A stretch of DNA of 64,000 nucleotides, from assembly GCF_024609325.1 (NCBI RefSeq), contig NZ_JANHMQ010000002.1, positions 620,001 to 684,000 of the forward strand, written 5' to 3'. Shown here one piece after another: positions 10,308 through 13,245 of the stretch. The stretch's first letter is position 1; each line of letters opens with the position of its first letter. A model generated the notes under the pieces. It ran no database searches, was not told the DNA's origin, and saw nothing but the letters and a program-made list of their open reading frames with translations. Position numbers and translations under genes: made by a program. This stretch comes from Geothrix fuzhouensis. GTDB lineage: Bacteria > Acidobacteriota > Holophagae > Holophagales > Holophagaceae.

Positions 10308-11453
10308 CTAGTTCCCCTGCTGAATTTCTTTCGCGATGACCAGACGCTGGATCTGATTCGTTCCTTCGTAAATCTGGAGCAGCTTGGCGTCGCGCATGCA
10401 CTTCTCGACGAGGTAGTCGCGGCTGTAGCCGTTGCCGCCGAGGATCTGCACGGCGTCGGTGCTGACTTCCATGGCGGTGTCGGTGGCGAAGGTTTTGGCG
10501 ATGGCGCTCTGCTTGGAGTTCTTGATGCCGTTGTCGGTCATCCAGGCAGCCTGCCAGGTCAGCAACCGGCTGGCCTCGATCTTCTTCGCCATGTCCGCCA
10601 GCATGAAGCTGATGGCTTGGTTGGCGAAGATGGGCTGGCCGAACTGGATGCGGGTCTTGGCGTAGTCCAGGGCGATCTCGTAGGCGGCGCGGGCCACGCC
10701 TACGCCTCCAGCGGCCACGGCGGCGCGCGTCTGGTCCAGGGTCTTCATGGCGATGACGAAGCCCATGCCTTCCTTGCCCAGGATGTTCTCCACGGGTACT
10801 TCGGCATCGTTGAAGTAGAGCTCCACCTGGTTGGATGCACGCTGGCCCATCTTGTCCATGGCCTTGCCCACCACCAGGCCCGGCGTGTCGCGGGGCACCA
10901 CGATGCAGCTGGTGCCACGGGCCCCCTTGCTGGGATCGGTGCTGCAAAAGAGCGCGTACCAGTCGGCGTAGCCGCCGTTGGTGCAGTAGCACTTGGTGCC
11001 GTTGATGATGTACTTGTCACCCTTCTTCTCGGCCCGGCAGCTCATGCCACCGGCGTCGGAGCCGGCGTTGGGCTCGGACAGGGAGAAGGCCGCGAACTTG
11101 GGTTCCTCCGCGAGCATGCCCAGCCACTTTTTCTTCTGCTCGGGGCTGCCCGCGATGAGCATGGGTGTCATGGCCAGGCCGTTGGCCATGATGGAGGTGT
11201 AGAGGCCGGCGCAGCCCCAGGCCAGCTCTTCGCAGACGATGGCCTCCTCGACCTGCTTGGCGCCGGGGCCGCCGCAATCCTCGGGCACCAGGGCCTGAAG
11301 GTAGCCCTGATCCCAGGCCGCCTTGTAGACGTCCACGGCCCACTCGCCGGTCTCATCGTACTTGCGCGCCACGGGCCGCATGATTTTTTCAGCGAACGTA
11401 TGGGCGCGATCTTTTTCGGCCTGCTGTTCGGGGGAAAGTGAGAAACCGAGCAT
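10308..11453 (-). CDS. Acyl-CoA dehydrogenase
   Basis: 381 residues, standard length for short/branched-chain acyl-CoA dehydrogenases. Visible features include the FAD-binding core ([11 protein letters not shown] region, [11 protein letters not shown]) and the C-terminal motif [12 protein letters not shown] with catalytic base E363. These flavoenzymes introduce the alpha-beta double bond and pass electrons to ETF. The ATG at 11453 follows an AGAGGT site; the reading frame open upstream is non-coding. The encoded protein probably works with the enoyl-CoA hydratase and carboxylase genes of the window, but it is in its own unit here. Confidence 0.95.
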
Positions 11454-11547
11454 GAATACCTCTATGAAAAATGGAGGGGAGGTGACGTGGCTGGAAGATT
11501 CCGGAAGCATCAGTCTATCTGCCCACCCGTTTCCGCCCAAGGCCTGA

Positions 11548-11815
11548 GAGTGTGATTTAGAATTCCCGCGAGCCGCGACGGCGGCCAGCCGCGTGATCCA
11601 GCAAGGAAGCGTGCGCAGGGCGATGCGGGACATCGTCCAAGCGCGATGACACAACTGGGCGCGCGGCTGGCAGCCGTCCCTCCGGGCTGGGGCGGCGGGC
11701 GTCGCCTGGCGTCGTCCAGGGCCCTAAACATGGAACCACCATGCCTGCGGGCCCTGTCCTAGCCATGCTCGCCCGGCGCTCCCAGCGCGGCCCGTGCGAA
11801 TTCTAAAACACACTC
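11548..11815. mobile_element. MITE-like 268-bp element with terminal inverted repeats
   Basis: The ends form 30-bp inverted repeats matching at 26 positions, beginning GAGTGTGATTTAGAATTC on the left and GAGTGTGTTTTAGAATTC (read inward) on the right. A direct TGA flanks each end (11545-11547 and 11816-11818), fitting a 3-bp TNA target duplication as made by IS1031-like IS5-family transposases. Nested inside are another 17-bp inverted pair (11577-11593 with 11660-11676, one mismatch) and an 8-bp pair (11717-11724 with 11749-11756). No coding sequence is evident. It fills most of the 436-bp gap between the divergent dehydrogenase and aminotransferase genes. Confidence 0.65.
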
Positions 11816-11889
11816 TGAGGCCCTGACGCGAAGTAGGATGACGACGGTCACATCGTGAGCTCGGGTTAAACTCAAGGGTTGGAGTACCC

Positions 11890-13245
11890 ATGACCATCCG
11901 ATTGACCGATCTTGGCAAGGCCGTGCTCGAGGCCGAATACGCTGTGCGGGGCCCCATCGTGGCCCGGGCCGCGGACCTGGAGAAGCAGGGCCGCGAGATC
12001 ATCTACTGCAACATCGGCAACCCCCAATCCCTGGGTCAGCGGCCCCTCACCTGGAACCGGCAGATCCTGGCCCTTTGCGAGTATCCGGCCCTCATGGAGC
12101 TGGCTCCCGGGGCCTTCCCGCCGGACGTGATCGAAGCCGCGCGGGCGATCCTCGCTGGCACGAAGTACGGGTTGGGCGCCTACAGCGAAAGCCGGGGCGT
12201 GCGATTCATCCGCGAGGCCGTGGCCGAGTTCATCCTGGAGCGCGATCACATCGGGGTGGATCCCGACGCCATCTTCCTCACGGACGGCGCCAGCAAGGGC
12301 GTGCAGACCGCCCTGCGCCTGCTGATCAGCGGGCCCACGGACGGCATCATGATCCCCATCCCGCAGTACCCGCTGTATTCCGCCACCATCACGCTCTACG
12401 AAGGACGCATGGTGCCCTACTACCTGGACGAGGCCAACGGCTGGAAGCTGAGCCGTCCCATGCTGGAGGCCTCCCTGGCCCAAGCCAAGGCCGAGGGCAC
12501 CCATGTGAAGGCCATCTGTGTCATCAACCCCGGCAACCCCACGGGCGCGGTACTGGACGAAGCCAACATCGAAATGATCATTGCCTTCGCCAGGGACCAC
12601 GGGCTCACGATCCTGGCGGACGAGGTCTACCAGGAGAACATCTACCTGCCAGGTGACGAGTTCGTGTCCTTCGCCAAGGTGCTGCACCAGTCGGATGCGA
12701 AGGAGGTCTCCCTTTTCAGCTTCCATTCCTGCTCCAAGGGCTTCCTGGGCGAGTGCGGCGTGCGGGGCGGCTACTTTGAGTTCCGGAACGTGCCTCAGGA
12801 TGTGGCCGCGCAGATCCTGAAGCTCCAAAGCGTGAGCTTGTGCGCGAACCTCGCGGGCCAGGCGGCGACTTATGCCATGGTTCGTCCACCAAAGCCCGGG
12901 TCTCCCTCCCATTCCCGGTACCTCCAGGAGAAGGGGGCCATCCTCGATGCGCTGAAGCAGCGGGCCATCCTGCTGGCCGAGGGGCTGAACCGCATCGAAG
13001 GCATCTCTTGTAATGTGATCGCCGGAGCCATGTACGCCTTTCCCCGGATCACCCTGCCGAAGGGGCGCACCGATTCCGACTATGCCATGGCCCTGCTGGA
13101 ACAGACCGGCATCTGCGTGGTACCGGGTTCCGGCTTCGGCCAGGCCGAAGGCACCGCCCACTTCCGCACCACCATCCTGCCGCCCACGGAGAAGATCCAG
13201 AAAGTGGTGGATGCCCTGGGCGAGTTCCACCGCAACTACCGCTAG
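11890..13245 (+). CDS. Alanine aminotransferase-like PLP enzyme
   Basis: 451-residue fold-type I aminotransferase closest in character to the eukaryotic-type alanine aminotransferases (GPT): NIGNPQSLGQRPLTWNRQIL, then VINPGNPTG, LADEVYQENIY (D244, Y247) and the PLP lysine K283 in SCSKGFLGECG. The expected reaction is L-alanine plus 2-oxoglutarate to pyruvate plus glutamate. A TTGGAG site precedes the ATG. The SDR gene follows 17 bp downstream and is probably cotranscribed. Confidence 0.92.
   Translation: MTIRLTDLGKAVLEAEYAVRGPIVARAADLEKQGREIIYCNIGNPQSLGQRPLTWNRQILALCEYPALMELAPGAFPPDVIEAARAILAGTKYGLGAYSESRGVRFIREAVAEFILERDHIGVDPDAIFLTDGASKGVQTALRLLISGPTDGIMIPIPQYPLYSATITLYEGRMVPYYLDEANGWKLSRPMLEASLAQAKAEGTHVKAICVINPGNPTGAVLDEANIEMIIAFARDHGLTILADEVYQENIYLPGDEFVSFAKVLHQSDAKEVSLFSFHSCSKGFLGECGVRGGYFEFRNVPQDVAAQILKLQSVSLCANLAGQAATYAMVRPPKPGSPSHSRYLQEKGAILDALKQRAILLAEGLNRIEGISCNVIAGAMYAFPRITLPKGRTDSDYAMALLEQTGICVVPGSGFGQAEGTAHFRTTILPPTEKIQKVVDALGEFHRNYR

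Follow-up and report, generated by a model that had tools for sequence, protein, structure and literature searches.

The locus and the inserted unit

The window analysed here is a stretch of 64,000 nucleotides of the Geothrix fuzhouensis genome. It contains two divergent metabolic genes, one for an acyl-CoA dehydrogenase and one for an aminotransferase, and in the promoter region between them lies a small, non-coding unit of 268 bp, about 95 bp upstream of the first gene and 72 bp upstream of the second. A sequence-only reading of the window had placed the unit between these divergent promoters, and the gene positions agree with it. The features of the locus are as follows, with the strand in parentheses.

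10308-11453 (-): acyl-CoA dehydrogenase gene, the left neighbour; start codon at 11453
11545-11547 (no strand): target duplication TGA, left copy; from sequence reading, single copy in relatives
11548-11565 (+): left terminal inverted repeat, a type A end; one mismatch against the right end
11548-11577 (+): left arm of the 30-bp outer inverted repeat, the base stem of the fold; from repeats, fold and covariation
11577-11678 (+): arm 1, a hairpin module; 98.1 bits, E 1.7e-21 with model R1, which includes this copy's own arm 1
11688-11784 (-): arm 2, inverted homologue of arm 1; 51.6 bits, E 3.6e-10 with model R1, and profile test
11786-11815 (-): right arm of the 30-bp outer inverted repeat; from repeats and fold
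11798-11815 (-): right terminal inverted repeat, a type A end; from sequence reading and end searches
11816-11818 (no strand): target duplication TGA, right copy; from sequence reading and empty-site alignments
11832-11852 (+): operator-like stretch AGTAGGATGACGACGGTCACA of the host site, outside the element; largely kept in relatives' empty-site alignments
11890-13245 (+): class I/II aminotransferase gene, the right neighbour; start at 11890

The unit proper (11548-11815) is bounded by an outer inverted repeat (11548-11577 and 11786-11815) that matches at 26 of 30 positions and whose arms stretch, in a repeat search, to 40 nt at 85%. Within these repeats are the 18-19 bp type A ends, AGAGTGTGTTTTAGAATTC. 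The flanks read GGCC-TGA on the left (11541-11547) and TGA-GGCC on the right (11816-11822). The interior holds two inverted pairs, one found by repeat search (11577-11593 and 11662-11678; 17 nt, 94%) and the other seen in folds of the unit. The terminal repeats, the direct TGA repeats, the palindromic flanks and both internal pairs had all been described from the letters of the window, and each was found again. The unit folds far better than its composition predicts: as DNA it reaches -98 kcal/mol against -63.1 +/- 3.9 in 200 shuffles (z -9.0), none of which did as well, and as RNA the z is -9.9.

The operator-like stretch contains TGAC...GTCA and is kept in most aligned relatives. It could control both divergent genes. 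The insertion put about 270 bp more between it and the dehydrogenase gene; therefore, a change in the expression of that gene is possible.

Copies, empty sites and target duplications

The unit is not alone in its genome. The search for further copies gave 26 match rows at 21 separate places, four of them nearly full length at 91-100%, so the objection that no second copy might exist falls away. More widely, blastn matches to the element were obtained in 23 of 25 Geothrix genomes. The host locus was matched in all 47 Geothrix genomes (47/47), and 25 of the 27 relative loci that were fetched align across the joined junction with the element absent; the remaining two align solely to the right of the junction. 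These empty sites rule out that the region is a fixed leader conserved among relatives.

The empty sites also bear on how the insertion was made. In several genomes (e.g., G041 and G002), the matches of the two flanks overlap by exactly 3 bases, as a 3-base duplication requires. A second copy (L002, flanked by TAA) gives a comparable picture, its flank matches overlapping by 4 bases in G041, G007 and G015. Empty sites carrying a single TGA had been anticipated. The emptiness was borne out and the exact triplet was not: in the closest relatives, the base before GA is A or G, not T, and for this reason the TGA at the window site before insertion is something that we infer.

Across the family, the duplication depends on the type of end. 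GAG-end copies number 60. In 21 of them the same triplet stands on both sides, and 20 of these triplets are TNA; in 2000 shuffles, the number of copies with matching triplets averaged 7.4 and never exceeded 17. Duplication of TNA is the IS5-type target rule, and the GAG-end copies follow it. The copies with GGG ends (type B) do not: identical triplets occur in 1 of 49, so the 3-bp duplication is absent. Their borders are CTA/TAG in 18 of 49 and TTA/TAA in 5 of 49, which may be read as a TA duplication within YTAR. There is, therefore, no single target rule across the family. Subgroups of the IS5 family use either TNA or TA-type targets.

With dispersed copies, terminal inverted repeats, no transposase gene inside, a target duplication and empty sites, the element has the marks of a type II MITE as defined in a review (PMC10969869).

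The ends and the transposase

An IS with the same ends as the unit was looked for. Type A ends, allowing at most one mismatch, gave 20 matches in 9 of the 47 genomes; for 19 of these a partner end lies within 51-369 bp, and one stands alone. At such distances there is no IS-sized unit, and the 47 Geothrix genomes thus yielded no autonomous IS bounded by type A ends at up to one mismatch. None was evident either among 18 stretches with the exact pattern from a collection of 84,980 species. In the family as a whole, some units are tiny, about 52-55 bp, with two facing ends and almost nothing between them (L139:1107-1161, L140:1063-1115, L112:1501-1555 and L117:1501-1552).

The sister ends of type B are commoner, being present in 30 of 47 genomes, and they do have an IS. 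In G020, several pairs of type B ends lie about 862 bp apart and represent an autonomous IS in several copies. Its ends, CTAGGGCCTGTTTTCAAAGTC, are the same as those of the type B MITEs, and the cores of these MITEs are homologous to that of the window copy. The IS (e.g., L128:978-1840) has two overlapping frames, matching DUF4096 and DDE_Tnp_1, both above the cut-off of the NCBIfam model NF033580 (transpos_IS5_3). Their overlap suggests a programmed frameshift. Relatives of this transposase are found in 10 of 47 genomes. The genome of the window is not among them: neither PF01609 nor the G020 transposase finds a match in it. L152 and L159 hold two more IS, about 834 bp long, with different ends.

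Ends like those of an IS around a different interior are thus seen for the sister type B only. A type B MITE was also considered as an internal-deletion derivative of the IS and rejected, as only about 20 bases of the IS end recur, judged by eye. The IS5-type link is direct for the type B ends and presumed for the window copy.

Very probably, then, the unit is a type II MITE moved in trans by an IS5-family transposase and inserted at a TNA site with duplication of TGA. The transposase, supplied in trans, would act on the 18-19-bp ends of the 268-bp non-autonomous element, and insertion at a TNA site would duplicate the TGA. The copies, the ends, the duplication and the empty sites are observed; the transposase for type A ends is presumed, because an IS with such ends was found nowhere in the searches and no transposase for them was detected in the host. 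The sequence-only reading had proposed movement by an IS5-family transposase. The copies, the empty sites, the TNA signal and the type B IS favor that proposal; the failure to find an IS with type A ends in the 47 Geothrix genomes counts against it.

The elaborate hairpins, conserved at the DNA level, might instead suggest an element of the REPIN/RAYT or IS200/IS605 kind, moved as single-stranded DNA via its hairpins. Such elements are not known to make a target duplication, and the TNA duplications, the precise 3-base overlap at empty sites and the IS5-type element carrying the sister ends make this origin extremely unlikely.

A folded core of two inverted arms

The family was studied in 113 distinct full-length copies. 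For structure alignment, 25 copies with less than 85% identity were used (a second alignment, A2, dropped one of the 25 rows of the first, A1, namely L238). The 25 copies fold alike, the ends pairing into a base stem that carries two arms. Paired cells make up 94.2% of the stems, compared with 73.9% in shuffles, and 75 of 89 stem pairs show a double change, compared with 42.5 in shuffles. The covariation score is 0.543, against 0.167 +/- 0.008 in shuffles and 0.07-0.12 when the columns are slid by 1-3.

The two arms are inverted homologues. Their profile score is 48.3, whereas shuffling of columns gives a mean of 14.0 and a maximum of 23.8 (0/300 as high), and a covariance model trained on arm 1 alone detects the window copy's arm 2 on the opposite strand (E 3.6e-10). 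Copy by copy, the inverted halves give a weak signal: in 12 of 92 copies, at most 5 of 100 shuffles are as good. (The 92 copies of this test and of the mismatch counts leave out, from the 113, five hits in the second orientation and cores longer than 222 nt.) The arm-1 model matches 59 of the 93 genomes of the class, all within one family: 41 of 47 in Geothrix, 18 of 30 in other genera of that family and none of 16 in two other families. In L264, L145, L018 and L029, copies that include type A, B and C ends, arm 1 carries a hairpin insert of about 42 nt in the same position.

Covariation of this strength, the high pairing and the low RNA folding energy are what one would expect of a structured regulatory RNA or leader, in which a working transcript keeps the fold and the terminal repeats serve as its base stem. 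The sequence-only reading had raised such an RNA as an alternative. Some columns are indeed biased as in RNA: two conserved G-T columns in the apex of arm 1 hold 168 GT and 3 AC cells, and the lower stem of arm 2 holds 111 GT and 39 AC. A selected transcript should favor GT on one strand, however, and the end stem shows little strand bias (41 GT and 31 AC among 1656 cells in 92 copies). The inverted homology of the arms also means that each is necessarily antisense to its partner. The site is empty in relatives, no promoter- or terminator-like pattern was found, and 10 loci gave no Rfam match at cut-off; the window stretch had a sub-threshold match to MIR1151 alone (25.6 bits, the cut-off being 90). 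Together with the mode of decay of resident copies described below, these results make a functional RNA very unlikely and leave us with the MITE as the preferred account of the unit.

Exchange of modules and decay in place

Ends are usually the most conserved part of a transposon. In this family, ends and interiors part company: in 114 pairs of copies, the ends are less than 60% alike yet one arm is shared at 88% or more. L017 and L249 have ends 44% alike and arms 96 and 98% alike; L004 and L005 share 93% in arm 1, 53% in arm 2 and 59% in the ends. Ends, arm 1 and arm 2 have thus been reshuffled from copy to copy. Partial matches covering positions 39-176 of the query, at first sight a separate repeat, proved to come from copies whose likeness is greater in arm 1 than in the ends or in arm 2.

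How the parts change also differs. In the subfamily of the window copy (its 15 nearest copies), 28 double changes stand against 3 single ones in the ends, and 15 double against 88 single in the arms. Several copies have one changed end type in common (L004, L224 and L225; L222 and L223), so the 28 double changes stand for about five lineages of change rather than 28 events.

Copies at matching sites in different species allow change to be followed in place, and 11 such pairs were compared. In the six pairs without a swap that scrambles the stems, single stem changes outnumber double ones 26 to 3. (A total of 29 double and 67 single changes leaves out L018/L256 and includes the swapped pairs and L227/L267, at 63% identity with 21 double changes.) Resident copies decay by single changes, and this counts against a fixed RNA role. 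One copy behaves otherwise: L007 and L241, from two species, share 96% of their sequence against 73-78% in the flanks, which speaks against free decay of that copy. L227 and L267 occupy the same site in two species and are just 63% alike.

Replacement is also seen in place. In 5 of the 11 pairs, the two species differ by the presence or replacement of an inner piece, with the ends kept. L264 carries a 42-nt hairpin insert that L073 lacks at the matching site. Between L018 and L256 the flanks are swapped, so that the two species carry the element in opposite orientations at one site; inversion of an IS by recombination between its end repeats has been described (PMC3004938) and fits this pair.

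Template switching during replication within the palindrome could keep the ends and arms matched in another way, while movement might still be of the IS5 type. Homogenisation of inverted-repeat arms by such switching has been described (PMC8604942 and PMC8794818), and long-range double changes without G-T intermediates do dominate in the family. The in-place comparisons show the opposite pattern, 26 single against 3 double changes, and in the subfamily paired changes are the rule at the ends and the exception in the arms, although these are just as palindromic. We consider template switching unlikely.

The best reading of these results is that cores are exchanged between resident copies, whereas the matched ends belong to the transposase partner. 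Copies would swap arms and larger inner pieces with the ends kept, the replacement at matching sites being directly seen; gene conversion is the presumed means of exchange. The two ends would stay matched most likely since the transposase must recognise both, and copies no longer moving would decay by single changes. The long-range double changes in the inner arms are not explained by recognition of the ends.

A more speculative idea, to which we give little credence, is that transposition remakes the element each time from a single folded strand, through a hairpin intermediate that is repaired or copied on itself. If true, the two ends would emerge matched despite change, as would the two sides of each arm in the longer run; the ends could acquire a new transposase specificity at a single step, and one folded core, common to many copies, could travel under many different transposases. 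End-stem and arm-stem mismatches are uncorrelated over 116 copies (rho -0.04), which gives no help to the notion of the whole fold being repaired at every jump.

Comparison with known systems

Like the bacterial type II MITEs outlined in the review, the element is short, non-coding and foldable, has terminal inverted repeats and a target duplication and is dispersed in many copies (PMC10969869); likeness to an IS confined to the ends is seen in its sister type B. Unlike them, the Geothrix family is GC-rich, keeps a conserved core under differing ends, and has two inverted homologous arms and reshuffled modules. With IS5-family IS it shares TNA or YTAR targets and ends of 18-20 bp, the type B ends being common with the G020 element; it differs from them in having no transposase, and no IS with type A ends was found.

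A few copies lie within genes. L007 and its counterpart L283 in G009 are in frame and stop-free inside a gene for a TPMT-like methyltransferase in two species (L007:1172-2038 and L283:1492-2352). At that site, the other aligned relatives are without the element, except for a short remnant kept in a third species (G018; L284). A carboxylesterase gene (L236:561-1700) has another copy in its open frame, between the start and the catalytic domain. In a rough codon test of 112 copies, 29 had coding flanks on one strand, and one of these 29 (L241, in G009) was in frame and stop-free. The palindromic form and the in-frame copies in the TPMT-like and esterase genes recall the Rickettsia palindromic elements. 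The Geothrix copies are larger, are mostly not in frame and have a clear TNA duplication at GAG ends. The window copy itself is intergenic, unlike L007 and L283.

The ERIC, Correia/NEMIS and YPAL repeats are likewise small, dispersed and stably folded with terminal repeats (PMC2229807); compared by that description alone, no relation to the Geothrix family is seen. Among titles and the beginnings of abstracts in the open-licence PMC literature, no description of this family was found.

Concluding remarks

Taken singly, the window copy is an ordinary MITE insertion; it is the family that is unusual. A folded core is common to copies whose ends differ widely from one another and match within each copy. 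The strength of its covariation carries a warning, that a DNA element can covary as strongly as a conserved RNA does. The family offers many natural cases of how non-autonomous elements change their transposase partner.
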